Below, piece by piece: positions 613-36,985 of a DNA stretch of 64,000 nt. The notes under the pieces were generated by a model. It searched no databases and was not told the DNA's origin. It worked only from the letters and a program-made list of their open reading frames with translations. Where the stretch lies: contig OY720347.1 of the NCBI GenBank assembly GCA_963082975.1, forward strand, positions 30,273,398-30,337,397, read 5' to 3'. The translations under genes and the position numbers were made by a program. The stretch is from Labia minor. Taxonomy: Eukaryota; Arthropoda; Insecta; Dermaptera; Spongiphoridae. The number at the start of each line of letters is the position of its first letter. Position 1 is the first letter of the stretch.

Positions 613-1043
613 CAGTGCCGGATTAAGGAATTTTCAAGGACAAGGACAGAATTCCGGGCCCCCACCCATAAAATAACATCAAATTTATTATTTATTTTAT
701 TTTTCATTTAAAAAAATTTTTATTGAAGAGTACTTTTTTAAAAAATATAGCAGAGGTGGGCACACTTGGTGATACTTAGAGCATGAAAAATCATTTTACT
801 TTTTTTTTTAAGAACCATGTTGAAAAAATGTAAAAAAGTCGAAAATATTTAAAAGTCTGATTGTAAAAATCATTTTACTTTTTATTTTTTTATTATTATT
901 TTTTTTATAGAACCATGTTGAAAAATTTTTAAAAAAGTCGAAAAAAAAATATATGTAAAAGTCTGATCGCAAAAGTGATAAAATTCCCGATCTTTTGAAC
1001 CGTTTTACGGGCCCCCTGAAATTACGGGTCCTTGCCTATTCTG
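613..1043. mobile_element. hAT-type MITE with 8-bp TSD
   Basis: The element starts cagtgccggattaagg and ends ccttgcctattctg, a decayed inverted end. It is flanked by ctcctaaa (605-612) and ctcctaga (1044-1051), an 8-bp duplication with one mismatch, as expected of hAT insertion. Inside lies a roughly 60-bp core (agaaccatgttgaaaaaa... then a-rich ...aaaagtcgaaaa) present twice in tandem. The same core recurs in other small hAT-like elements of this window that have different ends. It carries no transposase. Confidence 0.75.
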
Positions 1044-1197
1044 CTCCTAGACAACGAAATATTGAATTGAATTAATAACCAATTCAACATACAAAATATA
1101 ATTTTATATATTTTTATAATAATAAAAAAAAACACTGAATTTTAAACATTCTATGAATGGATAGAACCAGGTCATCAAGTCAGTTACAGCCTAAGTA

Positions 1198-1784
1198 CAG
1201 GGTGGTGCAGAGGAAACGCATGTTTTTCGAACCGCTAGTACGCGGCGAGGGGAGGGGGTATTGACCTTGAACGAATGTTGGCAGACAATGCCGTTTCAGT
1301 CATTCATAATGAATGAAATGTTTACGATGCTACAGTCTTTATGAGTGATGAAGCACATTTTCATCTTGACGGTTACGTCAATGTTCAAAACTGTCGGTAT
1401 TGGGCAAGAATTACACAAAAGAACTCTGCACAGTTTAAAGATAACAGTGTGGTGCTGCAGTTCAAAGTTGTGGATTGTTGGACCATATTTTTTTGAAGAT
1501 TCGCACACTCGATGACCTTAAGAATTCCATTCGTCGGGAAATTGAAGCAGTGCCGAATGAAATGTTGGAGAGAGCCGTCCCTAATTTTCAGAAGAGGATC
1601 CAAATTTTTATCCAGCAAGAAGAACGCCATCTCAAAGACATTATTTTCCGAACCTAAATATGGTATGTAATTTCAAAAACTGCATTAAAAAACCTATCAT
1701 TTAATGCTTGTTTTTATTATTTTCAACCCATTGTGTCCCAGTAATCCAATTCTGTAAAACATGCGTTTCTTCTGCACCACCCTG
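1198..1784 (+). mobile_element. IS630/Tc1-mariner element, internally deleted transposase
   Basis: Ends are inverted repeats of about 29 bp beginning cagggtggtgcagaggaaac on the left and mirrored on the right, with TA on both sides (1196-1197 and 1785-1786). Between them, plus-strand remnants of a transposase are readable. One is a block near 1342-1430 with SDEAHFHLDGYVN, the region of the first catalytic aspartate of the DDE domain. The other is a C-terminal block (about 1517-1657) containing DDLKNSIRREIEAVPNEML. The part with the second and third catalytic residues is missing between them, so the protein is dead. The ends are nearly intact, so it could have been mobilised in trans. Confidence 0.8.
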
Positions 1785-1786
1785 TA

Positions 1787-4250
1787 CCACAGGTTGGTCG
1801 GACCTCGTTCTTATAGATTCCAGGTAGAAAAAAATTCCCTTGCCTAGTCTGAAACTTGAACCTGAGCCTTCGAGGTTGCCTCTCAGAGTGTCAGTAGTTA
1901 TATATTTTAAAGTTGTCCAAATAATTTCTATTTTATTATCTAATTTTATATATGGCGCTGTTAAACTTGAAAGTTCTTAGCTAAAGCAACACATTCTTCT
2001 AACCATATTTTCTTGAGGCATATTTGTTATATTTCCATTATAACATATAACATCTTCATTTCTATTTTAATATAAAACACACGGCGTTTTTAATTAATAT
2101 AGTATAAAATAATATAATAATAATAAAACTAACATCCAATCTTTTTTCACATAATTTTACCCAATGTTTCATCTTTCATTATTTTTTCGTTTTTATCTTT
2201 AGTTAATTTATTATTATTTCATTAAAGTATATAAATATCAACAATAATTATTATTAGAGAAAATATTGACTTCATTAAAATAATATTAATAACAAAATAT
2301 GATTTATTAAATAAATAGGTTAGTGGTTTGTAATCTATGGGATAAGAGTTTATTAGATGAAGGGCATCGTGCAGCTGTTACGACAATAACATTTTCAATG
2401 ACTTCTCAGATCGAGAATATGTGAGATGAAACCTTGAATTATTATTTTTCTATTAATTATCCGGTAATATTCTATTTTTTGTAAAATTTGTTTTCTGTAC
2501 ATTTAAAATTAAAATTGTTATATATTTTGTATACTACTCTATAAATCCCATTATAAATCTATTTTTTTTCTCGATAAAATAAATAACAATATCAGGTGAG
2601 GTTTTTTTTTAAGATTGTTTATGTTTAGAGGGACGTATTGATTTTTTTTAATAAAGAATGATTTGGGGTAGAAAAAGATTGGAAACTAGAATATTAACAT
2701 TGTTTTTGATTTTGAATTTGAATATTATTTATTTAAAAAAAAAATAAATAAATAAATTAAAACTCTTAAGTAAATTATTTCTGTTAAAATTTCTGATTTG
2801 CAATTCCATTGTTAAAACAATTTTAATTTCGATACATTAATTTATTTACATTTACATAAATAAAAGTAATAAATTTATATTGTAAATTTTCCAATATTAT
2901 TGGATAAAATAAAAATAGCAATATATGTATATTGTAAATTATCTATTTAAACAAAAATAAAATAAACTATTATGAAGTTAATAAATGTATAAAATACCTC
3001 AATTTATTTTTTATAAAATATATATTATTAATAAACATATATATTAAATAAATATGAAAAAAGATATGGTCTATATGTGACTATTTGTTATTCTAGATCT
3101 AAAGAACATAGGTAAATAAGTAATTTATATTACGTATATTATGTATATTATAAAACTTTAAATTCATTAGTAACATATAGGTATTAATAATGTCAAAAAA
3201 AATTGAAATGTGTATCTTCTTTGTATCATTCAAGTGTTTTATTTACTTCAATATTTTACTAATAAATGAACCGGATAAAAAATAAATAAATAAGTTATTA
3301 TTATTTATGATTCAATTTTATTGTAAGAAATGAAATTCTCCTGTTAAATCGCAGTGTCTATCATGTACTTCAATTTACACACTAATACTTAGATAATGTC
3401 TGTTTTATCACCATCAAAATTGTACTTGGAAAATGGGAAGTAACAGTTATTATAAAATAATCAATTAACATGTTGATATGTAATATGTTTCAATTCAACA
3501 GATGGCCAACTGATCAAGAATAACAGCTCAAAAACGATATTTACATCCATAATCTCCCTTATATATTTTTAATTAATATACGTTTAAATAGATAACATCA
3601 TATATCAAAATAATTTTGATAAAATTTATAATATTATATATATTATTTTTCTCTTATGAGCTCGTAAGTTCTTTTCAATAGCAGCAATATTATTTAACTG
3701 TGTCTATTCAGAGCCACCTTCATCCATTTCCTAGCTTCTCTTATAATTCCATTATGTCCAGTCTTAAATTATATGCTCGCAGCAGCTTTGATCTACCAAC
3801 CGGTTGCTTTCCAAATAGTCTCTCCAGTACCATATTTCTCGTTCATCTTCCCACACCTGTTTAGCCACGAATATATTTTAAATATCTGGTTGAGAATTAC
3901 TAGAATAAATATTTTTATATTCATTGACGAACATGTGTGAAGGTTCCATGAATTGAAATAGAAATCCATATCACGAAGATTTACATAAATTTTTAAAAAT
4001 TAAGTTTTGTTTTTTCTAAATAGATTGATCAAATTTAACCTAAGTTCATAGAGGGGTAGATATATAATATAATTAGTATACTATAATTCCATAGTAAACT
4101 CCATTTTGAATTTACAACTACTTTCCCAAGCAGTCGGAAAAACATACATGGAAAATTCTAAAGTTATATTTGGATTTTCCAGATCATGAAACATAAAGAT
4201 AATTGAAAAATTTTAAATTTTAATCAATGTGCAGACAAAAACAAACATTA
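1787..4250. other. AT-rich stretch, no gene seen
   Basis: Roughly 2.4 kb of strongly AT-rich sequence with no long reading frame, no recognised repeat end and no RNA gene. Many short A/T homopolymer runs are present. A slightly less AT-rich patch at about 3700-3860 shows nothing recognisable. Confidence 0.6.
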
Positions 4251-4997
4251 ATATTGTAATATATAATCCTAAAAAATACATTTTTTATGTATATAAGGGT
4301 GCGAAAGCGAGAACTTTCATTTTTGAACACGTGCTAAATTAAAGAAAAGGACGTTTGGTCATGGGACATGTTGTCCGCACATGTACAGGGACCCATCCAT
4401 GTGTTCAAAGTGGGGGAAAGGGTTCATTATTGGTGAAAATGATATTTGAGTTAGTCTTGATCAGGCATTGGAGGGAGACATACATATCCCTGCAGGAAGG
4501 ACATCATACACAACCCCTTTTTGAGAAATGTTGCTGCACAATAGATGTTCCAGTTAAATCCGCAGGAAGACAATCAGGACTCAAGTCTCCAATGAACTCT
4601 CCATTCCTTTCTTTCATGCTAAGTGATAACACTTTCATAATTAATAATTAATTATAATTGCAATTGCTAAAATATAAATTAAATTTCTTTTAATTTATAT
4701 TTCTATTTTACGGTACCTTTCAATATGTTCTATTTTATATTAATTTCATTATTATCTATTTTGTAAATTTAAGTCTCCTAGTTTTATTAAATAAATAATT
4801 TGTTATAATTTTATATAAGCATTTTAATTGAACCTATTCAATCTTATCATTTCCAAAATCAACCTACGCGGATTCAATAACCCTTTTAATTATACAAAAT
4901 TCAATCCAGAGTGCTACCATTTAATTAAACTTAATTTTTAACACATTATTTCTTATAAAATACCTCACCCACTTTTCCTCTTATATACGACAATATA
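4251..4997 (+). repeat. TIR element K, copy 1 (uninterrupted)
   Basis: About 750 bp, present again inverted at 59834-60572 and, as a 3' part, at 25695-27533. The start atattgtaatatataatcc and the inverted end (tatattgtcgtatataag) match over about 14 of 16 positions, so it is likely a non-autonomous TIR transposon. It contains tatataagggtgcgaaagcg near 4293. A 98-codon open frame (4355-4651) is shared with copy 2, but every difference I compared between copies changes the amino acid in that frame, so I do not call it a gene. The junction a4924/t4925 is the empty target of the Helitron at 25988. Confidence 0.75.
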
Positions 4998-5008
4998 TAC
5001 CATATCTA

Positions 5009-5515
5009 CTATATGGGCTGAAAAGTGTCGGGATTTTTCAATAGACGATGCCACTAGAAAATGAACATGAATCATTTCGAGAGGCTCATCTGTCACTAGT
5101 TTATGTATGAAGTATCATGACATCCCGTCCATTCGTTTACAAGCTTCAGTCGTTTGAGTGACGCAACTTTCGCCTTCATAAGAAAAATGGAATAACAGGT
5201 ATATCGTCTTGATTAAACATTGTTTTTTAATGGGAAAAACTTGTGATCAATCATTGCAGTGGTTGCAGGAATGTTATCTCACATCTGCTCCTTCGAGAAC
5301 AACAGTTTATCAAGACGTGATATTTCTGTTATTCCATTTTTCTTATGAAGGCGAAAGTAGCGTCACTCAAACAACTGTAGCTTGTAAACGAATGGACGGG
5401 ATGCCATGATACTTCATACATAAACTGGTGACAGATGAGCCTCTCGAAATGAGTCATGTTCATTTTCTAGTGGCGTCATCTATTGAAAAATCCCGGGACT
5501 TTTCAGCCCATGTAG
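5009..5515 (+). mobile_element. mariner-type MITE with ~190-bp terminal inverted repeats
   Basis: The two halves are long inverted repeats: left 5009-5198, right 5326-5515 (start ctayatgggctgaaaag). Both are bordered by TA (5007-5008, 5516-5517). The inner edge of each repeat contains atggaataacag. The left copy runs into a mariner-like N-terminus with IKHCFLMGKTCDQSLQWL and SAPSRTTVYQ, matching the first helix-turn-helix of mariner transposases. Nothing of the catalytic domain remains. It is a deletion derivative that kept the TIRs, the start region and the first ~40 codons; an early stop (taa after atggaa) shows it is not coding. Confidence 0.8.
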
Positions 5516-5517
5516 TA

Positions 5518-7185
5518 TATGCTATATATTTGTATGTGGTTTTACCTCGAAAGATTTTGAACACAGCAAACGAATTCCTTCATCTGTCCCCATCTTGAGA
5601 TATATCAATCCAATTATATATATTTATATGTATTAATAATTTAATATAATCTTTAAAGGTATATTCTTCATTTTTATTTTAATATTTTTAATGAAACCTA
5701 TATAAAATTGAATTTTAATTTATGGTAATTATTATTTAATAACGAAAGGCTTAACTCTTTAGAAAAAAGTTGTATTTTAACGAATTTAATGAATTGAAAA
5801 ATAAAATTAAAAAAAAAACATAGAAGAAAGAGAGAAGGAGAGAGAAAGGAAAGATAACGAAATTCGCTGGCGGTGATGTGGTGTGGATTACAAAAAGCAT
5901 TCTCGGGAGGAGCAACGAAGATCGGTTGGCTTAGAGCTCATTTTACACGGGAGGTGAGAAGCCGCCACCGTTGCTTCCCACCTTTAGGTCTCATGTTGCT
6001 GAGGCGCAGGTGCCTGATACTTTGAACAAAGTACATGAACTTACAGAAGAGGAGGGAAGGCTGATGGGGAGGGGGGAGAAATACGAGCAAAAGACGTTCC
6101 ACCACCCTTTCAGCTGATAAACAAAAAGAACAAATACGGAGTAATAATGCAATTTATCTCGTCATAAACGACTCAGGGCTTAATAAATCAAAACGCTTCT
6201 ATGAAAGAGACAAACGAATTATATCTTAAGTGAATCTATAAAAGAAACGGCGCCAGAAAACTCACAAACGCCTTTGTTTTCTATTTTACATCGTCAGTTA
6301 TATGGTATTTATTTTATACCCAAAAATAATAATAAAAAAACCTCCAAAAATTAGTATAATAATCTTCTTCAGATTTTAATTTAAAAAGTTATATTCATAT
6401 ACTAAACACTTTTTTTTAGTTTTGTTTGAATGTTAATGTTTTAATTTTTATAATCATAGCCGTATTTTTTTCATAAAATTTCCAATTAATATGCAAAAAA
6501 AAACAAGAAAATATAAACTGAATAAATTATTACATTTCTCAAATCCCTAAGGTCTTATGAATATGGATAATGAACTAACTTGAAAAAAGAGGGAGGTGGT
6601 AATCGAGGGAAGGGGGCTGTTCTTTAAAGATGATTCGGTCCTTCTCTCAATACAAAACCCCTCTTCTCTAAATATAATATAAAAATAAAGTAATTACAAA
6701 TTCATATTTAATGAGTCAAAATTCAATGCAGCTTTGCTACTTTGAAATTATCGAACGGGGATCTTGGACCGTTAATAACAATAAAGATTATTAATGCAAG
6801 TTGGAATATTGTTTTGTTTTTATCTCAGATCTGAAATATAACAATTTACATATATATACAATTAGTATATCTACCATATATACATTATTATAATTAAAAA
6901 GTATATAAATAAAAAAAAACTGAAAATTTGTATTTGTTTAAATTTTAATACAATGAATGGATTAAATATAAATTAAAAATATAGTTTACAATTTAATTTA
7001 GTGCATCACAGAGTTAGAAATACAAACAAGTAACTTGGTTGATTATAGGGGACCAATTGAGAAACCACCAGTAGGATGACTAAGATAAAGGAGAACTTGA
7101 GGAAGTTAGGAGAGAATAGGAATTGGTTGGAATTAACTCAGAACAGTTAAACTGTTGAAGAAATCTGTTATCTGCGGTTATAGAC
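5518..7185. other. AT-rich stretch with a GC-richer island at 5860-6120
   Basis: Mostly AT-rich sequence without a gene. The segment 5860-6120 is clearly GC-richer than its surroundings (for example ggagaagccgccaccgttgc-like composition near 5960). I found no convincing reading frame on either strand and no splice-bounded exon. It could be a regulatory element, a noncoding exon or an old repeat. Confidence 0.4.
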
Positions 7186-8049
7186 CAGTGATTCTCAACC
7201 TGTGCGATCTCGCCCCCTAGGGGGTGATCGACATCTTAAAGGGGGCGATTATTTGACTATACGATTTTGGGGGCGAAATCATTTTCATAAAAAAAATAAG
7301 ATGATTTTGCGAACAGGTTCTGAAACTCGATATGGCTCTTTTTTATGTATAAGGAGGGGAAAATCCACGCGGACACCCCGCTGTAAGTTGGTGTCCCAAC
7401 GGGGTAGTGCCGGACTCTAACCGGCTAAAAACCCTCCTGGAACCACCGTAAGGTATTACTTCAGGGGGGAAGCCCATCTACCCTCGGGGACTTGTTAGGA
7501 TCCGCCTACACGCATCGGCCACCGCGCGCCAGTTCACTGTACTGCCCAGCATTAACCCTATCAGGTTTTCAGGCGACGGTTCCTTGCCATTCCGCATTCA
7601 AACAGCATGTGTTCGGCAGTCTCGGGTACCCGGCACAGACCACACCGACCGTCGGTCGTCTTCCCAATCCTCGTGAGGTACGCACCGAAGTCCCCATGGC
7701 CAGTGAGGATCTGAGTCAGATAAAAGTCCGCCTCTCCATGTGCTCTCAAAAACCATAGCCGGTAAGTCCACCTCCCACCGTCAGACTCGCGCCATCTTGA
7801 CTGCCACCTATCCATTAGCCACCCTCTGTTCAGCGCCCGAGAGATGTTATCGGCTCCATGGTGATATGACCGCTCGAGCGCCAACAGGTCAATAGGCGTT
7901 CAATATGGCTCTAAATATCACTTAGTGTACTTACCTTATATTTATTAGGGATTATCATGCAATTTATATCTGTAAAAATTTATAGGGGGCGAATTAAGAA
8001 GCGGGTCTTACAAAGGGGGCGTTTGGTCCAAAAAGGTTGAGAAACACTG
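7186..8049. mobile_element. hAT-type element interrupted by a LINE
   Basis: Ends cagtgattctcaacc and ggttgagaaacactg are inverted repeats of a hAT type. The flanks are ttatagac (7178-7185) and ccctaaac (8050-8057), only 4 of 8 matching, so the TSD has decayed or ends were exchanged. The subterminal sequence (gggggcgattatttgactat) is the same as, but inverted to, the element at 36586. The interior is split by a GC-rich LINE insertion at 7340-7899. Confidence 0.75.
7340..7899 (-). mobile_element. 5'-truncated R1-like non-LTR retrotransposon, 13-bp TSD
   Basis: A GC-rich block on the minus strand encodes the extreme C-terminus of an R1-type ORF2 (frame 7561-7884). It shows an LTQILTGHGDFGAYLTRIG motif followed by a CxxC...H...C zinc-knuckle pattern (CGLC, then HMLFEC). 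R1 elements end with this motif order. The copy is bordered by tcgatatggctct (7327-7339) and tcaatatggctct (7900-7912), 12 of 13 identical. The left junction begins ttttt, the A-tail read from the other strand. This is target-primed insertion of a 5'-truncated copy into the hAT element at 7186. Confidence 0.85.
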
Positions 8050-8064
8050 CCCTAAACCCTAGAC

Positions 8065-8324
8065 CAGTGATTCTCAACCAAGAAAAAGATAAGTGTAAAA
8101 GTTATTTACTTATTTACCATATTGAAAAAATTGAAAAAAAAGTCGAAAATGTTTAAGAGCTTGATCGCAAAAACATTTTATCTTTTTTTTAGAACTATAT
8201 TGAAAAAATTTAAAAAAAAGTCAGAGATGTTTAAGAGCCTCTTTACATTTGTAAAATATAGCGGCACATTTTGATAATCTCGTGGAACACAAAAGTGCCG
8301 CGGCACAGTGGTTGAGCATCACTG
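8065..8324. mobile_element. hAT-type MITE with perfect 8-bp TSD
   Basis: The element starts cagtgattctcaacc and ends ggttgagcatcactg. It is flanked by the perfect duplication ccctagac (8057-8064 and 8325-8332). The interior holds the shared core (atattgaaaaaattgaaaa... aagtcgaaaatgtttaagag) twice. It stands 15 bp from the hAT element at 7186, with similar ends but a different interior near the right side (gtgccgcggcac palindrome at 8296-8307). Confidence 0.85.
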
Positions 8325-8364
8325 CCCTAGACCCTAGAGCAACATAGTTAGATAAGTTTCTTCT

Positions 8365-8858: not shown

Positions 8859-8860
8859 AA

Positions 8861-12236: not shown

Positions 12237-12379
12237 AATGAAATATTTTTATCTTAACCATATAGTATACATATATAGATATATGACTTTATTTATTTAT
12301 TTTCTTATTCCTTGCACAGGGCATTTCTTATCAATGTTGGCGCTTTGGTGCCAGGCATTAAAATTCTTAAATATGATTA

Positions 12380-12580: not shown

Positions 12581-12599
12581 CAAATTTAATTTTAATCCA

Positions 12600-13603: not shown

Positions 13604-13636
<33 letters not shown>

Positions 13637-16588: not shown

Positions 16589-17763
16589 CAGGGCTTCGAA
16601 CCGGAACTGAACCGAAAACCGAAAACCGAAAAAACCGGTATTTTTGTCGGAACGAAAACCGGAGCTAAACCGAAAAAAATAATATCGGTTTATTTCAGTT
16701 CAGTGTTCAATCCAGAGTTTCCAGAAGTGGTGTTTTTGGGCGTTTTGGCAACACACAACCCCGAATTTTTTTCAATTAATTATGTCTCGTACTGCATGGT
16801 GTCGCTAAAAACTTTGTTTCAAAAATTAGTGTCCTAGTCATACTCTCCCTTCGGTTGTGTTGGCAGCGTCTCGTAGTCGCAATACAGAATTTAATGTTTT
16901 CATCGTTTGTTTAATACTGATATTTTGATTTAATGATAGTATTAATTTTTTAAATTATTTATTCCATTTGTTACAGGGTTATGTATTGATATAAAGAAAA
17001 TGATTCATAAATATAAATAAAATTATTAAATAAATTTAAACAAATATTGAATAACTTTGACCAGGTACGAAGATTAGACAGTAAAAAACTTATTTTAGAA
17101 TTTTGGGAGGAAAATAAAAATACAATTTCTCATTTATACAAAATTGCAATGGTGGTTTTAGGAGCTACTCCAACACAAGTTAGTGTTGAAAGAGCTTTCT
17201 CTGCTTTAAAGTTTATTTTACGAGACAATAGAAATAGTTTAAATACAAATATATTGGAAGATATTTTAATAATTAGAGGTAATTTTCATCTTTTATAATT
17301 ATAGTTATAATTGTAAGTAAATATATCCAAGAATCCTGTATACTTTAACATTAAATATACGAATTTGTTTCGTTTGTTGAGTATTTGAAAGTAGAAGGAT
17401 GGAAAAAAATATTCATACTTATTTGTTCCGTTTAATAAATTATATTAACATCTTATATTATATACTTTTAATTATTATACCTTTAATTAATTATTATTAT
17501 TTATATTATATTGTATCAATTCATGTAGTATGATTTAGGGTGGTAGCAAGAAATATTTTTATATATTTATGGCAGACTCGGCATACCCCGACCTAAATTT
17601 CTAATACAAATAAAAGGTCTTTAAAATTAATTAATCGGAACTGAACCGAAAACCGAAAAAACCGGTATTTTTGCCGGAACGAAAACCGGAACCGAACTGA
17701 TATTTTTTTTTTATTGAACCGGAACGAAAACCGAAACGAAAAAAATAACGGTTCGAAGCCCTG
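16589..17763 (+). mobile_element. hAT element with dimerisation-domain relic
   Basis: Inverted ends cagggcttcgaaccg and cggttcgaagccctg are flanked by the perfect 8-bp duplication gtttatac (16581-16588, 17764-17771). Subterminal regions are rich in the repeated word gaaccgaaaaccg, possible transposase binding sites. Inside, 17047-17298 encodes about 80 residues of the hAT C-terminal dimerisation domain (LYKIAMVVLGATPTQVSVER, AFSALKF, LEDILIIR). It ends at a normal stop. The DNA-binding and catalytic parts are missing, so this is an internally deleted copy. Confidence 0.9.
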
Positions 17764-17817: not shown

Positions 17818-18755
17818 CAGGAGTCGGCAACCATTTAGTTGTGGTGTGCCAAGCCACTCTACCAATATGATTCAGGGTGCCGTCTTAATTCTAAATTATA
17901 TAATGGGGTTCTAGAGGAGAAGAATTTTTTACCAAATTTATCTTTTAAACATATTTATTAAAAAAATAACATAAAATACTAACATAAATTAAAAATTTTT
18001 AATGCAAACCTTGCCCCTGCACATTTATGCTTAATATTTCAATATCAGGGGTATAATTTGGTGGAACCAAAAGCGGAAAGGAGAGCACATGCAATTTTCT
18101 TTAAACAATTAAATCTTTCCGGCAATGACATCCAACAATTTAATATATCAGTCGATTTTTCCATAGATTCATCTTCCAGATTTTTTCGTAATTCTTTAAA
18201 TTTTGTTTCCCATAATTCTGAAGATATTAGTATATTATATTATCGATAAGTTCCATCTATTAAATCTGGTTTTATGAGGAAAGAAAATATAGGCACATGA
18301 GCTTCAAAGTCTTTGCATCTTCTGGAAAATTCATCTTTAAGTGCTTCAACGAAGGTTTTAAGTTCATCTTTGTCTATGGTCGATTTATTTGCAAGCGCTA
18401 TATCATTTGGGAAGTATTTGTAGGTATTAGTATCACATAAAAATATATTTAATTTTGCAGCAAATCCTGTTCAATATTTAAAAAGTTCGAGCACAGTTTG
18501 GCGCTTTCCTTGCAATCTTAAGTTTAGTTCATTGAGGTGTTTAGTTATATCAGTCAGAAACATCAATTTACATAACCATTCTTTATCGTTCAATTCGGGG
18601 AAATGTTGTTAATAATTATAATTAAACATTTTCTCTTATTTAAAAATCACTTCGTCTCGATATTTTCGCGATTTCCGTGATTACTTTGTAGAGTGCCATT
18701 CAGAATCCCATCGCGTGGCAAGCCTGGCACGCGTGCCATAGGTTGCCGACGCCTG
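17818..18755 (-). mobile_element. hAT element (ZBED5/GTF2IRD2-like transposase), decayed
   Basis: Inverted ends caggagtcggcaacc and ggttgccgacgcctg are flanked by the perfect duplication gtttagca (17810-17817, 18756-18763). Read on the minus strand, 18600 down to about 18060 gives broken transposase sequence: LNDKEWLCKLMFLTDITKHL, LNELNLRLQGKRQTV and SRRCKDFEAHVPIFSFL. This matches the hAT-like domain of ZBED5 / GTF2IRD2-type transposases. In-frame stops show it is dead. It stands 46 bp from the previous hAT element. Confidence 0.85.
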
Positions 18756-24350: not shown

Positions 24351-24384
24351 AACCTATATATATATAAATATACTATTTTCAAAT

Positions 24385-26289: not shown

Positions 26290-27245
26290 AAAAAATGGAG
26301 TGTTCTAGCCAAATTAAGAAATTTAAATTCCTTATGCAACATTGATAGGTAAATGAATTGGACTGGAAGAGGAGACATATGATTAGAGAAATTGGGGAAA
26401 AATCAACCGAAATGTAATTAAACAAAAAAATTCAAGAATTATGATACGGATACGACTTACATACAAAATGTAGAATTTGAAAATGTATAAATATTTAAAT
26501 ACTTAAGATCTCTAATCACCAAAGATAATAATATTCGAGAAGAATTTAAATCGACGTTGTAATTGAGTAACGCCTGTTATTATGCAGTAAAGGGGCTTAT
26601 CTCATCAAAGAGGATCAAAATTAAAATATATAAAACAATTATTTTTCATGTTGATCCATGACTAGGGTGACCATATTTCGAAAACACCTAACCGGGACAA
26701 ACGGTATACCTTTTTTTTAGAACTAAATTGAAAAAATTTTGAAAAAAAAATTACGAAATGTCCTAAATATTGAAAAAACAGTAGGGTGTCCCGAAGACAT
26801 TTTTGGGACAGAGCACCTAAAGACGGGACGTTTGGTCACCCTATCGATGACTCTGGGAGACGAGAGTAGATTTGGAGTATTTGTGATATTAATATTGTTC
26901 GCAGCATTTATAGGCCAAAAGAAGATGAGGTCACAGGGGGATGGCGGAGATGGCATAACGAGAAATAATGTCCAGATATAGTTAAGGTTATAAAATCAAG
27001 AAGGCTAGGATGGGAAGGGGACGTGGTTGGAATTGGAGAAACTAGAAATTGGGAGAAACCGATTGGGAAACATCCGGTGGAAGACCAAGGACCAAGGTGG
27101 GTGGACAATGAAGGAAGGGACATGGGAGAGATGGGACAGGGTAGGATTTGGTTGTTTTTTCAGGATAGGGACGCTTAGAGAATTGTAGATGCTGCGGCTA
27201 AGAACTTTCGAAAACTGTAGAGACAGAGTTAGATAAATATAACAT
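26290..27245 (+). mobile_element. LINE ORF2 C-terminal fragment inside Helitron A
   Basis: Degenerate plus-strand LINE sequence of the same family as 23005-24350. It includes EIGEKS...LNKKIQE (26390-26440), then TKDNNI.EEF (about 26518-26550), KIKIYKTI (26620), and the 3' segment ending AKNFRK (27190-27220). Many stops interrupt it. The same 3' segments occur at 54850-55115 and 61190-62118. It lies wholly within the Helitron ends. Confidence 0.8.
26663..26843. mobile_element. Small hAT-type MITE nested in the Helitron's LINE
   Basis: The ends tagggtgaccat and atggtcacccta-type are inverted over about 11 bp. Flanks tccatgac (26655-26662) and tcgatgac (26844-26851) agree at 7 of 8 positions. 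The interior holds the shared core (tttttttagaactaaattga, then aaatgtcctaaatattg). The interrupted LINE reads on across the two flanks. Confidence 0.75.
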
Positions 27246-27533
27246 ATACAATAATAATATATAATTAATTTACTGATTAAATTAAAATATATTTTACAAG
27301 AAAACAAATACATGTCTTATCTACTTATACTGATTGAAACAAAATGGATGAAAACCTTTTACATACAGACTTTCAACCAAATACTATGTATCACTCGGGG
27401 GTACAGGGGGCGGAGCCCCCGTCTAGGTGTGAAGAGCGCCGAAGGCGCTCGGAGCAGCTAGTTAAACTTATTTTTAACCCAATTTTTCTTATAAAACACC
27501 TCACCCCTAATATCTTATACACGACAATCTATA

Positions 27534-29224
27534 CAGTCCCTGGCCAAATTATTAGACGCACTGTATTTTTTTAATAATTTTATGATTCTTAAGAGTTTTT
27601 ATACAGTCATTGTATATTTAAACTACAATATTATTGATTTTTATTTAAAAGATTTGTCGTTGACTACCTATTTGTATTTATTTTAAAAAAATGGCAACAC
27701 TGTGTTGACAAAGTGATACATGAACGTAAACAAGTACAAATCTGTATCAATCGTGATCGGGATCGCGGCAGGTACGTACGTGTTTCTGTGGCTTTATGGA
27801 CTGTCATTGTTTGTTTAACTACTCAATTATTACTTTATTTTGTTTAGAGTGTTTGAAAAAAATATTTGGACTATTTTTATTATGGGTAGAAAAGTCGATC
27901 TTACACCACGTAAAAAAGCTGAAGTGAAGGCCCTTGTGAATGCAAATACATTTACAAACCGGGAAATATCACGAAGATTGAAGGTTTCTGAAGCCAGTGT
28001 ACGCCGCATAAAAAAGAAAATTGAGTCTGGGGAGGAATTAAGCTCAAAAAGAAAGAAAAGATCCGGTAGAAAACCAATTTTCACTCCACGGTCAGAGAGA
28101 TGTTTGAAGAAAATTTGTCTAGAAAACAGATTTGCTACCACAAAGATGATAAAATCACAACTCCAGGATGCTAGCGTAAATGCTTCTGAACGCATTGTTC
28201 GAAGAAAATTAAAAGAATTAGATTTTAAGGCCTGTCGCCCCGCCAGGAAGCCCAAGTTAACAGCTGCCATGAAAGCAAAGCGCCTGAAGTGGGCCAAACA
28301 ATGGAAAGACAAAGATGTGGACTTCTGGAGATCGATAAGATTTTGTAATTTTATAAAAAATTGATACATTATAATCATTTTCAGTTAAATAAAGCAAAGA
28401 AACATGGAAGTTTATATATTTTGTTTATTTTTGACAGGTCTGCTTCAGTGACGAAAGCACGTTTGAAATTTTGCAGAATAAAGCTCTGTATGTGCGTCGT
28501 CGTCATGCAGAAAAGTTTCATCCTGTGTCGTTCCAACGGTGAAACATCCAACCAAAGTGATGATTTGGTCGGTCATTAGCGACAAGGGTGCTGGACGTCT
28601 ATACGTCGTAAATGGAATAATGAGACAACACCAATACAAAGAAGTATTACAAAATCGGTTAATTCCGCAGCTCAAAGAATGGTTTCTAAATGGGGAACCA
28701 TTCACTTTCATGCAAGATGGAGCTCCCTGCCACAGCTGCCACACTGCTCGGTCTGTTAAAGCTTTTTTGGCAGAAGAAAATATCCCTCTGTTGGATTGGC
28801 CGGGTAATAGCCCCGATATGAACCCAATTGGAAATGTGTGGGAGCTAGTGAAAAGAGAAGTGGCTACAGATATGATCACCAACAAAACTCAGCTCCTAGA
28901 AAAAATTATTCATGTGTGGAATCATCACCCTCAAATGCAGGAGACAGTACAGTCTTGCATTGAGATAGCATGCCGCGCAGAGTTGAAGCTTTAATAGCGG
29001 CTAAAGGTGGCTCGACTAAATATTGACTTTTATTTACATTATGTATTTTCATTTTTCTTTAATACTTAATAAACATATAATTTTCTAAATTAATGCTGTT
29101 TTATTTTATTTTCATTGATTAATATAAAAATAAAAAACAATTCAATTTATAAGTACAATATCACTCGGTAATTAATATTTTACATGAAATCTTGCAGTGC
29201 GTCTAATAATTTGGCCAGGGACTG
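27534..29224 (+). mobile_element. Full-length Tc1-like transposon, 30/30 TIRs
   Basis: The 1691-bp element has perfect 30-bp inverted ends (27534-27563 and 29195-29224; outer bases cagtccctggccaaattatt). It is bordered by TA at 27532-27533 and 29225-29226. The transposase within is a pseudogene (see next entry). Perfect TIRs with a damaged gene suggest a fairly recent insertion that could still be moved in trans. It is inserted at the last TA of repeat K copy 3. Confidence 0.93.
27882..29026 (+). pseudogene. Tc1-like transposase, inactivated
   Basis: An N-terminal part (27882-28330) starts MGRKVDLTPRKKAEVKALV, with a helix-turn-helix (TNREISRRLKVSEASVRRIK) and a second DNA-binding region ending VDFWRS. 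An intron-like segment (about 28331-28437) follows. It has a good acceptor (tttttgacag), but the donor reads TCG|ataaga, as if the invariant G had mutated to A. The catalytic part resumes VCFSDESTFEILQNK (first D), then a small deletion near 28522 shifts the frame. The second block (28539-28994) has FMQDGAPCH (second D) with a duplicated CHS, and DWPGNSPDMNPIGNVW, where the catalytic E of the usual NPIENVW is G. A last frameshift near 28965 precedes the usual C-terminus (AAKGGSTKY at about 29000-29023). It is dead on several independent counts. Confidence 0.9.
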
Positions 29225-29357
29225 TATATAAGATGGTAGGTTTAATCAAATGGACTTTAGACAGATTTGTTTGCTAAAAAAAATTTTTAAATAATTACAA
29301 TAAATAGAATAATATATTCTTACCTAAAAACAAATTGGTTTTTATAGTCAACAATTC

Positions 29358-29802
29358 TTTAACACACAACAATTCCGTCTCATTATTGTAATACAAAGTT
29401 AGAAATATTAAGTTAATATAATTAATATTATTTATTTATTAATACCAATTAATAATAGTAATTACTTATAAATAATTCATAATAATAATAAATTGTGATA
29501 CCAACTTATAGGAATATTAAAATAATATAATTATTATTTTACATATATATGAATATAATATAAATATTTTTAATTTTATTTTAAGAATAGATATATATCT
29601 AAAAGGAGGTAACTGTGACGTCACATATATACATTTAAATTAAAAACAACTAATGAAGATGATTTTTTCCAGATATGTGATCAATAAAACTAAATAACTT
29701 AAGAGTATAACTAATGGTTTTCAATTTATAAAATCTAATTTAACACACAACAATTCCGTCTCATTATTGTATTGTAATACAAAGTTAGAAATATTAAGTT
29801 TA
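29358..29802 (+). repeat. Pair of ~60-bp direct repeats
   Basis: The sequence tttaacacacaacaattccg... to ...agaaatattaagtt occurs at 29358-29414 and 29739-29802, about 380 bp apart. The only differences are a 5-bp ttgta duplication in the second copy and flanking ends. What lies between is AT-rich and not recognised. The origin (local duplication or element ends) is unclear. Confidence 0.75.
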
Positions 29803-29819
29803 AAAAAAATTTAAAATAT

Positions 29820-30090
29820 TTGAATTTTGAAAATTATATGTAGCGCCATCTGTCGATAGTTTTGTGACACTACAGACTTTTAGCAATATATTACTAATTA
29901 AATTAATTTTGGATAAATTAATTTTGGATTTAACTACACTAAAACCTTCCTTGGTATGCCCACAACAATCCCTGAAAGTTTCACCGTAATCGGACGGGTA
30001 GTTTTTGAGTCTATAAGAGACAGACAGACAAACCAACAAACAGACATTGCCTTTTATATATATAGATAGATAGATAGATAGATAGATAAA
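29820..30090 (+). repeat. Probable retroposon 3' tail ending in (GATA)n
   Basis: A moderately GC-rich block reads aaaaccttccttggtatgcc, then gaaagtttcaccgtaatcgg, then gacagacagacaaaccaaca, and finishes in (gata)n at about 30059-30088. This order (sentence about flattened phase words, agac repeats, short tandem tail) is common at the 3' end of RTE-type and related insect retroposons. No coding part is present. Confidence 0.4.
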
Positions 30091-31508
30091 AGCGTTTAAA
30101 AATGAATAGGAAAAAATATAAATTATTTTTGTTAATTGTTTTATTTATTATGAGATTTTAATTTTAAACTAAATATAAAAATAAGAAGAAGATAAAATAA
30201 ATTTACATAAAATATTTTAGTAGAAAAAGGTAAAGGAACTAAAAAAACAATGTTTATGATTCATTATTATTGGATTGAGAAGAAAAACAGTTTCAATTTC
30301 CTGGAAAATTTAGATCAAGATCTGATTATTGACAGACTCCTTAATTTTGAATGAATTTTTATGCATTTGAATAATCCAATCCACAGTATATTATATTATT
30401 TTATTACCATCCATTATGACTAATTCTTTTTTTATACTGATTTTCTTTTTTTTTTCTTGTTTGGCTGGTCCAGCAGTCGTAATCTAAAGCCATTCATCTT
30501 TTGAATCGACATTAAATTTGATTTAACGATGAAATCATTTCATTAAAAAGGCCTTAAACTTTTCTAGAACAAAATTTAATTAACAAAATTAAATGCATAA
30601 TAAATTACAATATATATTAAAGTAATGAGTGTAGTCATCTGGATATTTTTTTATATTTTATTTTTTATATTTTTTTTTTCTCAAATACATAATAATGAAA
30701 TATATTCAAGCTTCTTATAGTAAATTTTCATGTTTGAATATATAGGTTAGTTAAATTTAAGTAAAAAATAAAAATGAAAAAAAAAAAAAATAATGAGATC
30801 ATTACATGAATCATTTTCAAAGTAAAGTTAAAACTTCAACATTACAACGTTATAGAAAATAGTATTATATAAAAAAAATATTTACTTAGAGATATTGAAT
30901 ATAAGATTGACATGAGCTATCTTTTTCTTCTATTATGGTCAGAACGTTTGGTTGTCAGTGAAAGGAGAAAAGATTAAAGGATCGTTTTAATTAACTTGTC
31001 ACAATAAGTTTTTCAGAAGGTTTTTAAGTCAATTTGAAACTCTTAAAAGAGGGGCGTGACTAGAATGACCAATAATAATTATTAAATTCATCAAGAATTA
31101 AAAATCAGAATTTTCAAAGTGCTAATTAATAAAGTAATTGGAAATTTATTTTTAACCTTTAATAATTTATTATTTATTATATTTTTTTTTATAATTCCAT
31201 ATTTTTTTATTTTTTATTATTATATAGAAATTGATTTGAGAGATTTGTTTAAATTTTAATAAAATTAAATATAATTTTACAATTATTTAATTGATAAAAT
31301 ATTAAAAAACAAAAAAAAAGATAAATTAAATTATTATTTATTTGAAAATTAAGACGGAATGTTCAGGAAACAAAAGATCTGAATTTAAAAAAAAATAGAT
31401 ATACAAATATTAATGCTTAGTAAAAGTTTATAAACTTTAAATTAATAATGAAAATAAATAATAAAATTATTTATATTTATTTTTAATGTTTAAGTTTGTA
31501 TATTAATT
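30091..31508. other. AT-rich stretch, no gene seen
   Basis: No reading frame, RNA gene or repeat end was recognised. Long A and T runs dominate (for example poly-A at 30778-30790). Confidence 0.5.
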
Positions 31509-31760
31509 AAATAATAATAATATTATTATTATTATTTGAAGATCGAGGCACTTCAGCTACTACGGCCATTTGTGCCTTAAAGAAATCATCCATCGTACAA
31601 GATACATTTCATTTATCCCCAAGCGATCCCTACAGGGAGAATTTCATCTTCTTCGCCGGGGCACAGCTAGGCTAACAGTAAATTACTGAATCCTGACCGA
31701 TTCCATTAAGTCAGACTCAACACTCCCCGGGTAGATCACTTGGACAGAATGATTTTTCCT
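31509..31760 (-). mobile_element. Probable retroposon (LINE/SINE) 3' end with (AAT)n tail
   Basis: A GC-rich block on the minus strand ends ggccgtagtagctgaagtgc then ctcgatcttcaaataataat, passing into an (aat)n tail (31509-31545 on the plus strand). A compact GC-rich body finishing in a trinucleotide tail is typical of a non-LTR 3' UTR or a SINE. I cannot name the family and no TSD was fixed. Confidence 0.5.
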
Positions 31761-31900
31761 TTTAGACCAAAAACAATCTATTCAATAATTAACCAATCAA
31801 TAAATATAATATACAATAAATAAATAAATTAATTAACAGATGAATAAATAATAAAAAATATCACCGCTCAAAAAGGGACTGTAAAGGGGTCCCCATTGAA

Positions 31901-32196
31901 CAGTGGCGTAACTAGGGGGGAGCAGGGGGGACATATGTCTCCGGGCGCCAAATTTAGGGGGCTCAAAATTAGGGAAGCCAATTTGGAACAAAAGAAGAAT
32001 TAATATTTAAAGTTAAACTGTATTGTGTGTAAGTCAATAAATATTATTTATACGCTTATTAAAATCTGTTAAACCTGTTTCGTTATTCGTCATTAATATT
32101 CTTTAAAAAAAAATTAAATTATATATATATATACACGAAAGGGGGCGCTGATTTCTCAGTTGCCCCCAGGCGCAAGAACCTCACGGTACGCCACTG
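31901..32196. mobile_element. hAT-type MITE with perfect 8-bp TSD
   Basis: Ends cagtggcgtaactagg and ggtacgccactg are inverted, and the flanks are the perfect duplication ccattgaa (31893-31900, 32197-32204). The ends resemble those of the 11380/48917 family, but the interior (tctccgggcgccaaatttag, gggggctcaaaatta) is different. Confidence 0.88.
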
Positions 32197-32534
32197 CCAT
32201 TGAACATCACTAGAATATAATAATAAAAACAAAAACAATTAAATAATAAAAGATAATTAGTTAAATAATATAAGGAGAATAGTATAGTTAATTTATAGAA
32301 AAAATCGCCCATTTGTCCAAATTTGATATACAGAAGATCGAATTAGCAATGTAAAGGTTTGAATCCCTCTACGATAGCATTGTATCTATGTTATCACCAA
32401 ATATAGCTAAATAAAAACTTATTTAATTGTATAATATAACAAAAGAAATCGTTTTTTTATCTTTAATTCGATATTTTATTACAATATAAATGTCGTATTA
32501 TATGAAACTCGTTTGATTTATAACACGCTTGGTA

Positions 32535-32930
32535 AAAAAGGGCAAGGATAATAATATTCCCGAAGAATTTAAAATAAGATTGTAATAGGACGGGGCATGT
32601 TATTATACAGTAAAGGGGCTCGTTTTATCAAAATTATTTTTAGCGGTATTAAAACTAAAAAAAATATTATTTTACCTGTTTTAGAAGGCGTGGTATTTAC
32701 TTAATTTTAAGGAACAAAAATTGATTTAATATTTTGAAAATAAAATTATTCCTAACATTTATAGGGCAGAAAAATGACATCATAGGGGCAAAATGGGGAA
32801 AGTATAATAAGGAATTAAATAACCATGATTTTTAAATCGAGGATGCAAGATATATGGCTAGAATGGGTGATGAAAGTTTGGTAAGAATAGCCGATAGGTT
32901 GAATGTTTCAAGGAGTAATAATAAATTTTA
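32535..32930 (+). mobile_element. LINE C-terminal fragment, strongly decayed
   Basis: Plus-strand pieces match the LINE family at 61640-62000: KDNNIPEEFK (about 32546-32575), CYYTVKGL (32600-32625), ENKIIPNIY (32737-32765), and an agaatgggtgatgaaagttt segment. Stops and indels are frequent. Confidence 0.65.
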
Positions 32931-33188
32931 AATTTCAGTATCTAACAACAAATATATTTGTTTTAAATATATTTAAAATAATGTAATATAAAAAAAACTA
33001 ATTTATATATTATAGTGATACTCAACCTTTTTATAACCACCGACCACTTTTAGAATCTTAAAATTAAAATCTTTAAATTGTTCATCTTCACACAATGAAA
33101 AATGAATATTGAAAAAGGAAACTTAGATTATTATAATGTAAAAATACACATTAATATTTTTTTATTATAAATATTGAATTCTCTAAAT

Positions 33189-33478
33189 CAGAGGTTCTCA
33201 AAGTAGTCTATATCGACCCCTAGGAGTCTATGGCAAACTGCAAGGGGTCTACGGTAGCGAATAACAAATTTGGGGGTCCATGAAATGAAAATGGGGGTCT
33301 TCGTGTTTTCCCGACAAGGCTCTAAAAAATGGTAAATTGTTTTAGAACATTTTTGATTTTTCAATATGACTCTAAAAAATGGGGTAAAATTTTTTTATAA
33401 AAAATCAATTTAGGGGGTCTACCCAAAACCGAAAACTTGGCAAGGGGTCTACGACACAAAAATGTTTGGGAACCTATG
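33189..33478. mobile_element. hAT-type MITE, TSD 7/8
   Basis: Starts cagaggttctcaaagtag and ends tttgggaacctatg. Flanks are ctctaaat (33181-33188) and ctctagat (33479-33486). The interior repeats the word aaggggtctac/gggggtcta and includes an inverted match to the shared core (ttttcaatatgactctaaaa). Confidence 0.75.
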
Positions 33479-34735
33479 CTCTAGATATTCTACCACAAAC
33501 ATGAATTTCTCAATATGTAATGAAATAAAAATTTGTTTATAAATTTTTATGTTAACAATATAGTAGTATATAATATAATAATAGTATAATAATTATAATA
33601 TAGTAATTTCAATGGGAATCTATTCAAATAAAAAGTAAATTTTACTATTTACAAAAAATGATAATCTAATACAAAAATATAACTTTTAGTATGAATACCA
33701 ATAATTATTATGTAGGAGTACGAAATAAAGTTATTCAAAAAAAAGTTAACTAGAAAAAAAAACATTTATTAATTCATTATTTTTATTAAGCAAACAAGGG
33801 AACTCATTCTGTTAGAGGAGCGGCGATATAAAATATAGCTGTGAAAACAACTCTGGCAGAAAAGTTAATTTATATGATGTGTCTAAAACAGGGAAAAAAT
33901 GAATAATTTTCTTCAACAGATGCAAAACACTCAGATTATGCACATAAACTTTTATCTCACAAGATTTTACTTTTCATACACACACACCTACACATATACA
34001 TACACAAATATATATGTATATGTATATAAAACTAAAATATTGAATAAAATTATAAATTATCATTCGTATTATCAATGCAATATTGATATTGAAATAAAAA
34101 TAAATATTAGAAATCATCACATTAAAATATGTAAATAAATAATTTCAGAGTTAATATGTTTATTTATCTATTGATATTATAAATAAACATTTTTTTTTAT
34201 TTATTTATTTTTTTAGTATTATTTTTTCATGTGTAACTATTTACTTTTATCATGTGATATATTGTTCAATACGCGTGATTTGGTAAAATGCCAGAATTAT
34301 ATATATAATTGTAAAATAACCGATTGGCAACAATGTTTTATATTATAACTATATATTATTTTCAGTCCGAAAATCAAAGGAATAATAATTTATTAAAAAT
34401 GAAATTAATGATGATGAAAGGATAGAATGAGATGTGTCTACTTACGAAGGTATAATATATTTCTCGTTTGGATGAGATTATCATTAATAAATTAGTAATT
34501 ATTTCCACATGTAAAATTCCTGAAGTAGAATAACATAATGAATCTATTTATATCTCAACTAAAATAGATTATGTAATTATTTGAACAATGTTGACTGATC
34601 ACATTTAATGTATGTAATTTTGAATAATTTTTTTATATGTGAGTATAATAAACTAATTAATTTTTTTTTTAATTTTGGTCAAAAATATAGTTAATTGTTT
34701 TTAAATAAAGTTAATAAAGAAACAAACAAATAAAG

Positions 34736-34987
34736 CCCTATGGGCTTCTTAAATATTTTTCATTCGCGACCCCATTTATGATTGCGAGTTTCCTGGCGAA
34801 TCCGTAAATATAAAAGAAAAATATATAAATATTTTTTGATGATTAATTTATTAGGTAACAATATACATACATATAAATCTAAATGCACATCTAGAATCTA
34901 GGTATTTGACACTAAAATCTCTCGCGACCCCAGAATTTTTCTATGCGACCTCCTTTTGGGTCGCGACCCATAGTTTAAGAAGGCCTG
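34736..34987. mobile_element. hAT-like MITE, decayed ends
   Basis: The left end ccctatgggcttcttaaa and the right end tttaagaaggcctg are roughly inverted. The subterminal gcgacccca and gggtcgcgaccca words also pair. Flanks aaataaag and atctaaag agree at 6 of 8 positions. The element type is inferred from the ends only. Confidence 0.55.
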
Positions 34988-36530
34988 ATCTAAAGAATGT
35001 TATTTTTTATTTCTATATTTAAAAGGGGTTCAATCGAATTATATTCACAAATTACAAGGATAATTTAATATGAAAAATAAAATATAATCTGCCAGTTTTT
35101 ATTCATAAAAAGAGAGTTGAAATATTAAATTTGATTAAAAATATATTTACTTATTGTATTAAATTAAATTGAATTTAGTATACAAGATGAAAAATATTTA
35201 TGTTGCATGTTTAAATATTAAAAGTAAAGAATTTAAAAGAAAAATAACTATACAGAATCAATTTTCTTACACTAACAATAAGTATTATAGATAATCAACC
35301 AAAATTTTTTTTTTTATATAATCAAGTAAATTAATAAAAGAAAGTTGTTTAAATTGTTTATAAGTATTAAATAAAATGTGAAGATGTTAATAATTCATTT
35401 TTATCATCATTGATTTTGAGGTTATATGATAAACATAACCTCAATTCGTTGTCAGTTTAATCATTTATTATTACTTCCAATCCAACGTTACTTTACATAT
35501 ATCTGAGTGTAATATGTCGAGGATATTCTTCTCTTATAAGTATCATAGAGAACTTTACACAAAAATTAGAGTGAAAAAAATAAATCGTATTGGTTAAGAA
35601 TGTTGATAATAAAATTAAGCAATTGCTTAAATTTCAAGAGCATTTTTTCAGATTAAATCAAAATTTATACAATTAAATTTATTAAACATTAATCTGAATG
35701 TTGAAATTAATGAAAAGCGGATGGAAATGGAAAGTATCAAACAAACTTTCTTGCGATGAACAGATTTAAAACGATCGGGATTATAAACAATAACGAACTA
35801 GTTGAAATGTTTTCATTAAAAGGATTTAAATGAATTACTCCACCCTTCTCTCCTTCTCTTACCCTTCAAATAAAATAGAATATTACATTTTCACATTGAA
35901 CTCATAACTATTAAAAAAAAAATTAATAACAATAATATTAAACATTAAAATAATTAATGATAATAATAATTAGTTAATAATTTTAAAAAATCAGAATATA
36001 ATATATAATAATATTAAAAAAAACATAATGATTCATATTTTTCCTTCCAATAGTCATTCTCTTCAAATTCCCTTATATAGGATTTGCCGCATTTTGTTTC
36101 AATTATTATAATATGGACTTTATTAATTATCTCATTCAAGTGGAAATAGATATATAAGTTGAAATATATAATATATATTAAGAAAATTTTTTTAATTAAA
36201 AACTATTTTTAAATTTATCTTATCATCTTTATTTTAATATTTTTAATTTAAATCATTTCAATTTAGATTATTTTATATAATATTTTTTGACATATACTTA
36301 TTACTAAAAGAGTATTATCCACACTGATTAAAACACCGAAGTCACAGAACGTCAATTTTACGTTTATTTTATAATAAATTGATAATTCAAATTCATAAAG
36401 TATTATAAATAGTGTATTATTTTTAAAAAAATAAGAAATTAAGGTATTTTTATTCCTTTAATCTTAAAGGTAATTATTTTAATTAATTAAATTAAATTAA
36501 AAATGTCTGTGTGTATGTATGTTTGTGTGT
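34988..36530. other. AT-rich stretch, no gene seen
   Basis: No coding frame, RNA gene or repeat boundary recognised. Confidence 0.5.
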
Positions 36531-36534
36531 ATTT

Positions 36535-36985
36535 AAACAAGAGTGGGTTATTACCTGAAACGTTTTGATTTTTTTTCCTCTAAAGTAGTTGTTCCCAACC
36601 TTTTTGGACCAAACGCCCACTTCGTAAAGCCGGCTTCTTAATTCACCCCCCCCCCCCTATAAATTTTAACAGATAAAAATTCAAAATCATATTATCTTTG
36701 TTTTTAAGAACCATATTGAAAAAATTTAAAAAAAGCGAAAAAAGCCTGTTCGCAAATCATCTTTTTTTTAAGAGTTGAAAATGATTTCGCCCCCAAAAAA
36801 TAGTATCGCCCCCAAAATCGTATAGTCAAATAATCGCCCCTTTTAAAATGTCGATCGCTCAGGTTGGGAATCACTACTCTAAAGTGACCATAAAAATAAA
36901 GATATATGTTTGATAGTTTTTCACATGTTTAAAAATTGTATAAAACTGCTATATATAGAATTTAAGCTTGAACTTCTTTCACTAA
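36535..36985 (-). repeat. Repeat family X, copy split by a hAT
   Basis: The family X sequence (gttattacctgaaacgtttt then ctctaaag) breaks at 36585 and resumes at 36877 (ctctaaagtgaccataaaaa, then tttaagcttgaactt). It is inverted relative to copy 1. The 291-bp block between is a hAT element. Confidence 0.8.
36586..36876. mobile_element. hAT-type MITE with perfect 8-bp TSD
   Basis: Ends tagttgttcccaacc and aggttgggaatcacta are inverted. The duplication ctctaaag (36578-36585, 36877-36884) is perfect and is confirmed by uninterrupted family X copies, which have it once. The subterminal sequence equals that of the element at 7186 in inverted orientation. The shared core (agaaccatattgaaaaaatt) is present. 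Confidence 0.9.

Follow-up and report, generated by a model that had tools for sequence, protein, structure and literature searches.

A single interior core within hAT-like miniature transposable elements of unlike ends in Labia minor

In a 64-kb stretch of the genome of the dermapteran Labia minor (assembly GCA_963082975.1, contig OY720347.1, positions 30,273,398 to 30,337,397; A+T 73%), hereafter the window, one short core sequence lies inside hAT-like miniature inverted-repeat transposable elements (MITEs) whose ends are unlike. A first-pass annotation of the window had described such elements as differing in their ends while sharing their inside, and this observation is confirmed and proves larger than was then seen: genome-wide, 68 of 90 loci selected through the core carry both ends of one family, at least 11 end families contain it, and the arms that surround it mostly find no match from one family to another, suggesting an exchange of interiors between such elements.

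Anatomy and distribution of the core

A profile built from six clean matches in the window (802-875, 900-979, 8105-8178, 8181-8246, 26710-26786 and 36698-36763, with nhmmer expect values, E, of 2e-16 to 2e-10) recovers eight core matches at E < 0.05 in the 64 kb, which fall into six hAT-like elements of five end families; the next-best match has an E of 0.45. The elements and their core matches are listed below with their terminal inverted repeats (TIRs) and target site duplications (TSDs).

613..1043, plus strand: family E MITE; left TIR CAGTGCCGGATTAAGG; TSD CTCCTAAA/CTCCTAGA, 7/8
802..875, plus strand: core unit 1 of the E element; nhmmer E 6e-15
900..979, plus strand: core unit 2 of the E element; nhmmer E 2.5e-14
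7186..8049, minus strand: family J MITE; core split by an insert at about 7340-7914
7302..7344, minus strand: core remnant of the J element; nhmmer E 0.041 and family alignment
8065..8324, plus strand: family A MITE; TIR CAGTGATTCTCAACC; TSD CCCTAGAC on both sides, 8/8
8105..8178, plus strand: core unit 1 of the A element; nhmmer E 2e-16
8181..8246, plus strand: core unit 2 of the A element; nhmmer E 6e-15
26663..26843, plus strand: family H MITE; TIR TAGGGTGACCA; TSD TCCATGAC/TCGATGAC, 7/8
26710..26786, plus strand: core unit of the H element; nhmmer E 2e-10
33189..33478, minus strand: family K MITE; TIR CAGAGGTTCTCAAAG / CATAGGTTCCCAAAC; TSD CTCTAAAT/CTCTAGAT, 7/8
33305..33379, minus strand: diverged core of the K element; nhmmer E 5e-4, or 4e-5 with another profile
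36586..36876, plus strand: family J MITE; TIR TAGTTGTTCCCAACC / TAGTGATTCCCAACC; TSD CTCTAAAG on both sides, 8/8
36698..36763, plus strand: core unit of the J element; nhmmer E 2e-13

The ends of these elements are indeed unlike, as first described, except that 7186-8049 and 36586-36876 belong to the single family J, in opposite orientation and with arms 81-92% alike, which reduces the ends to five families. Likewise, an 8-bp duplication had been assigned to every element, and this stands for five of the six (7 or 8 of 8 positions), the flanks of 7186-8049 (TTATAGAC/CCCTAAAC) being identical at just 4 of 8. The core of 7186-8049, although marginal (E 0.04), is accepted because its element is a family J member, the reverse of 36586-36876. 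Interrupting it is an insert of some 575 bp (7340-7914) that has AGAGCCATAT on each flank and an A-run at one of its ends, and that we take to resemble a 5'-truncated fragment of a retrotransposon without long terminal repeats. The elements at 7186 and 8065 have a 15-bp terminus in common and unlike subtermini; the latter has a left subterminal deletion relative to other A copies, and the element at 613-1043 matches the E consensus at 83% across 271 columns.

Two of these neighbourhoods recur elsewhere. The adjoining J and A elements (window 7186-8324) are found again, with a similar flank and an A part that is 95% alike, at position 12457350 of contig C6 (loci L003/L004), where L004 has one CCCTAGAC between the J and A elements and the window has CCCTAAAC-CCCTAGAC. 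The region around the H element (window 26500-27000) is present again on contig C1 at 46.1 Mb (L114), twice within 3 kb; the H copies have spread partly via duplication of larger segments.

An exact 19-mer from within the core, GAACCATATTGAAAAAATT, occurs in 1038 copies in the 604.5 Mb genome (541 forward, 497 reverse), its sole exact occurrence in the window being at 36708, inside the J core unit at 36698-36763. Read backwards as a control, the 19-mer has no copies, about 0.12 being expected from the window base composition. Similarity is also evident independently of the profile: the 15 pairs among the six clean cores reach local alignment scores of 35-81, and 14 of them beat, for both members, the best score against 610 background 100-mers on both strands, the exception being unit 1 of 8065 with 26663 (score 35). 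The two poorer cores are marginal by this pairwise test, that of 33189, although significant with the profile, scoring 16-32 against the others (own background maximum 28) and that of 7186 scoring 16-39 (own background maximum 29), with the 39 coming from its pairing with 36586. Furthermore, the best score in 640 kb of sequence simulated on the window (ten first-order Markov runs) is 10.6 bits, as against 19.5-51.6 bits for seven real matches; the 7186 copy gave no significant match with the second profile used in this test. Chance similarity could be suspected of a core this rich in A+T and homopolymer runs, but the pairwise scores, the profile matches, the 19-mer count with its empty control and the far lower simulated windows lead us to reject it as next to impossible. 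A search of IMG/VR with a degenerate form of the 19-mer gave two matches with nothing core-like past the pattern (by eye), which we read as chance.

The genomic survey rests on the first 90 of 100 listed copies of the 1038, all on contig C1, and the selection by exact 19-mer places the core in all 90 loci by construction. These loci hold 129 unit matches, 2 of them on the minus strand, to the unit consensus TTACC-T8-AGAACCATATTGAAAAAATTTAAAAAAAGTCGGAAATGTTTAAGAGCCTGATCGCA. The unit spans about 62-85 bp (about 75 bp) and is often tandem: two or three core matches occur in 37 of the 90 loci, and successive same-strand pairs lie 48-85 bp apart in 31 of the 37 (62-85 bp in 29), head to tail, the other six pairs being 229-1230 bp apart. 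Since successive units mostly follow one another head to tail at 62-85 bp, the motif of about 60 bp first described represents a single period in a short tandem repeat; the motif is real, its unit is longer than stated, and the element at 26663 has a single unit with a weak second half. The part shared between families varies in extent, amounting in B, C and G to about 40 bp of one unit and elsewhere reaching two or three units, within elements of about 150-480 bp. The T-run of the core may be a landing site for another repeat, which starts ACCGACCGACGATAG, ends near GTCAACTTATTT, has inverted CGACCGACGGT-like ends, and lies in or against this run at five loci (L042, L056, L058, L062 and L067); it is also seen away from the core at L068, L114 and L124.

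Away from the selected places, 17 core matches were found in 354 kb of sequence, selected loci included (7 in the window and 10 elsewhere), and 16 of them have a family end probe within 500 bp, the exception being L024, where the sole nearby probes belong to the selected element. Twenty random 3-kb stretches (60 kb) contained two core matches, both beside H-type sequence: L114, which is not independent, being a duplicate of the region around window 26500-27000, and the weaker L101, which is absent from the 17. L121 holds a separate H-type copy of the core.

End families and target site duplications

The end families that carry the core were clustered by their termini: each of A to J is represented by one or more both-ended loci among the 90, and K is found in the window and in L004. 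By end probes, the 68 both-ended loci divide into A 27, B 11, F 7, D 6, E 4, J 4, C 4, G 3, H 1 and I 1; a further 17 loci have one end, some of them interrupted by other repeats, and 5 have no probe match. As to whether the core ever occurs outside hAT-like ends, which the first-pass annotation had proposed to ask, these five loci all have such ends by eye: those of L037 are its own and come with a TSD, those of L061 are F-like and those of L085 I-like, and L031 and L087 have further hAT-like ends. A solo core fragment does lie about 120 bp from a complete A element at L032, and at L062 a core fragment abuts another repeat. Core orientation is constant within each end family. No end probe matched the opposite strand within 700 bp in the 90 loci, M probes excluded; the M left probe matches the minus strand in L066, and six probe matches fall on the same strand at an unexpected side (L032 twice, L058, L062, L094 and L099).

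TIRs accompanied by an 8-bp TSD with at most one mismatch were found in 45 of the 90 loci, 28 of the duplications being perfect and 41 of the 45 loci being both-ended, and no TIR with TSD reached that score in the other 45; the search required a CA or TA start, and CA/TA termini are hence not independent of this count. The duplications are of two types. The form nnnTAnnn, with TA at positions 4-5, occurs in all 33 of these loci from families A, B, C, D, I and J but in none of the 8 from E, F and G (Fisher p 1e-8 for the contrast); among the window elements it is found in A, J (36586) and K but not in E or H. This form is the consensus of the Buster group (PMC3517528, in excerpt), and A, B, C, D, I and J thus carry Buster-type duplications, while E, F and G do not. 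The presence of TSDs and TIRs argues against a Helitron-type insertion, which would leave no target duplication, Helitron ends themselves not having been searched for.

Outside the core, comparison of the arms between families gives three matches at E 0.01 (E 4e-4 to 0.005), namely between C and J across the TIR, between C and D in what is D interior, and between J and a cytosine-rich stretch of E. Because A and J have their 15-bp terminus in common and the ends of D are related to those of the single element L037, independent lineages are fewer than family names. The two objections named at the outset, chance similarity of low-complexity sequence and derivation of all ends from one family by point divergence, both fail, the core standing far above chance and the TSDs being of two types.

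Origin of the core

The borders of the core differ from one pair of families to the next. Similarity around the 19-mer ends at pair-specific points, 6-73 bp to its left and 0-60 bp to its right (leftward extents of 8-12 bp are in part a matter of T-run length, and L031, L087 and H were entered as short stretches), and no constant core borders were found across families. Family C holds D sequence from CCTTTTTCAATAG into the core and again to its right, with the outermost D ends absent: the two families are 85% alike over 94 columns, from the D subterminus into the core, and over a further 22 bp right of the core. Locus L117 has the C left arm without the D sequence and departs at the same point, after AATCTAATTTC. 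E, J and D have in common the core and an upstream stretch ending CACT..GTGATACTTAGAGCC, which in E and D copies is extended by a common GAAATAATATA. In the G element of L094, the core is flanked on both sides by copies of the right arm with 42 matching columns, the left copy ending GGCAAC where the core starts ...AACATTTTAC; another G element, L097, has the core at a different junction. An arm duplicated around filler could be a trace of template switching in repair. Lastly, when family membership is mapped onto a tree built from 75 core units, 17 changes are needed (the minimum being 9 and the shuffled mean 32.3, with 0 of 200 shufflings as low), the units of A, C, F, I and J clustering by family and those of B weakly so. 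We read this as one or few captures in most families followed by inheritance, with D and E near the source or exchanging more often.

Three explanations had been offered at first: filler gained by gap repair, a mobile unit within MITEs, and a functional replication or binding module. Because borders differ by family pair, C holds D interior, L094 has a duplicated arm and L032 a solo fragment, repair filler fits best, the mobile unit lacking constant borders and the module lacking clear constraint. We thus regard the core as probably being filler that was passed repeatedly between hAT-like MITEs by template switching in repair and then amplified. The core would have begun as the interior of one resident MITE, for which D or a D-like ancestor is the best donor candidate. 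A break or excision gap in another MITE would then have been filled by synthesis that switched, via short matches, to a core copy elsewhere and switched back, so that the resulting chimera would have ends of its own around a borrowed interior. Such a chimera would keep the ends needed by its own transposase, and chimeras of different families would be amplified by separate transposases, which could account for the single core orientation of each family; slippage or unequal repair at T- and A-runs would give rise to the tandem units.

Several observations weigh against this account. Of three G loci, just one has a strong arm duplication, the scores being 62 in L094, 31 in L099 (18 bp) and 17 in L097 (none), and in a fixed-window test of all 90 loci L094 reaches 55, with the next locus at 33, a median of 18 and L099 outside the top 12. 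On the core tree, D and E units show no family clustering (4 changes per 4 rows each), and 57 of 72 inner branches are open. A parent with an empty interior was recovered for no family, save the partial C arm in L117, and D is a donor that we infer. The evidence comes from one genome, one contig for most loci and several readings by eye. L117 together with L121 was considered as an autonomous C element and rejected, no hAT-like frame being apparent by eye among the L121 frames of at least 70 amino acids.

Many of the same patterns would also result from nested insertion, in which a core-bearing hAT MITE jumped into other MITEs and then lost its ends, along with parts of the hosts, through internal deletions. 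We consider this the most credible alternative, if clearly a less likely one. The D interior holds CAGGGGTGGGCACACTTGG, a near-identical version of which is the left end of L037 (TSD TTCTAGAT on both sides), C holds much of D without the outermost D ends, and a complete nested hAT-like element (left end CAGTGTCGCATTTAGC, duplication TATTTACC/TATTCACC; by eye) lies beside the core within the A element of L091. However, no core was seen between intact inner ends and an inner duplication within another family in the loci viewed by eye, the A, B, F and G consensuses and the H element contain core units without recognised inner end remnants, and E and the D copy in L074 have about 19 bp in common upstream of the supposed inner end.

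A further reading, which we hold to be rather unlikely, makes the core a hyperparasite of transposons, whose T-/A-tract causes breaks or stalled forks, invites template switching and spreads sideways between families. If true, the core would ride on the transposases of unrelated hAT groups with neither ends nor an enzyme of its own.

It seems somewhat less likely again that the core is a functional module, an accessible A/T-rich stretch or a binding site that aids any hAT element and is kept by selection. Its presence in at least 11 end families with two TSD types would suit such a role, and away from the selected places the sole both-ended members without an above-threshold core match are the window J element and its L004 duplicate, whose core is damaged (two apparent coreless G end pairs are halves of core-bearing G elements). 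In family A, divergence is 0.139 in the 30 core columns before the 19-mer and 0.082 after it, 0.039 at the left terminus, 0.069 in the subterminal part and 0.113 in the right arm; in family F the corresponding values are 0.051, 0.077, 0.044, 0.053 and 0.086. The right arm hence diverges more than the core after the 19-mer in both families, but beyond the 19-mer the left arms are better conserved than the core. More generally, the columns flanking the 19-mer diverge more than the left terminus in A, B and F, and mostly no more than the right arm; there is no clear constraint on the core. The module would also have to accommodate a shared part that varies from about 40 bp to several units, and hAT-like elements without a core match: three in the window with 8/8 TSDs (16589-17763, 17818-18755 and 31901-32196), and three loci (L122, L123 and L124), out of 150 matches scored among 3604 candidates in a genome search with PF05699, with no core match below E 0.2. 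A/T-rich filler may nevertheless have a weak effect.

Some of these coreless sequences bear transposase frames. The element at 16589-17763, also seen at L124, has the TIR CAGGGCTTCGAACC, a perfect TSD GTTTATAC and a remnant hAT C-terminal frame (by eye), and many PF05699 matches of 93 amino acids may belong to its family. L122 (contig C4, 35008500-35014000) has at 1648-4185 an open hAT transposase frame of 845 amino acids with DUF4371 and Dimer_Tnp_hAT, and L123 has a frame of 621 amino acids with zf-BED and Dimer_Tnp_hAT. The ends at 16589 are other than those of the core families, L122 and L124 have no convincing match to a family end probe, and the ends of L123 were not found; no autonomous partner of a core family came to light among these sequences. 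The window also contains a frame at 46836-48515 with a sub-threshold Lig_chan match and Tc1-like frames at 27840-28994.

Descent of all end families from one core-bearing element whose ends diverged is very improbable. The termini of A, C, D and J do follow a common CAG..T...CAACC-like pattern, and A and J have 15 bp in common, but core-free arms barely align whereas cores do, at about 72-100% and mostly 80-95% among the matches listed, and a single diverged family is unlikely because there are two TSD types. We give slightly less credence still to the core as an independent mobile unit inserting into MITEs: it has many hosts and one fragment outside an element (L032), yet constant borders were not found, core-edge duplications having been sought by eye and not systematically, orientation is fixed per family, and the off-selection matches lie, with one exception, close to a family end.

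Comparison with known systems

Among open-licence literature in PMC, judged by titles and the starts of abstracts, no hAT case with a shared interior and unlike ends was found. Tandem repeats reportedly ride on one MITE in Xenopus, going by the title of a 2004 study by Hikosaka and Kawahara; tandem units inside a MITE are likewise seen here, there in a single MITE. In Drosophila, the hAT MITE Mar arose through internal deletion of one autonomous element and resembles the present elements in being small and non-coding, with an 8-bp TSD that takes the form nnnTAnnn in the Buster group; the excerpted text describes for Mar no interior common to unlike families (PMC3517528).

Template switching at microhomology has been proposed for the Pack-TIRs of animals, of which 208 of 370 are hAT elements, the commonest class (PMC8277862, in excerpt). 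Pack-TIRs and Pack-MULEs thus resemble our reading of the core in that elements with TIRs gain filler through template switching. According to the same excerpt, Pack-TIR filler is captured non-transposon sequence and nearly always single-copy in animals (PMC8277862), whereas the filler described here seemingly originates in other MITEs, recurs unchanged in kind across many families and has multicopy products.

The closest precedent is that of the CMITEs of the corals Acropora millepora and A. palmata, in which MITE families that differ in their TIRs have a conserved 75-base interior, the origin of which is left open in the portion of the report drawn on here (PMC2872659). As in L. minor, several families with unlike TIRs share an interior and tandem arrays occur; the CMITEs are, however, piggyBac-type elements of about 100 bp with a TTAA TSD, belong to one superfamily with a common terminal motif and form arrays of whole elements (PMC2872659, in excerpt), whereas the present elements are hAT-like, about 150-480 bp long, of at least 11 families and two 8-bp TSD types, with variable borders and tandem core units. 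The present case goes further in the number of families and in traces of mechanism. Where the interiors of MITEs come from when they match no autonomous element is an open question, and here one such sequence can be traced: with so many end families and two TSD types, a single genome is enough to identify donors, recipients and switch points. The authors of the coral study left the origin of their interior unresolved, and the core of L. minor offers a system for testing the repair explanation. A practical consequence is that unrelated transposon families may be merged when repeats are clustered by the similarity of their interiors.

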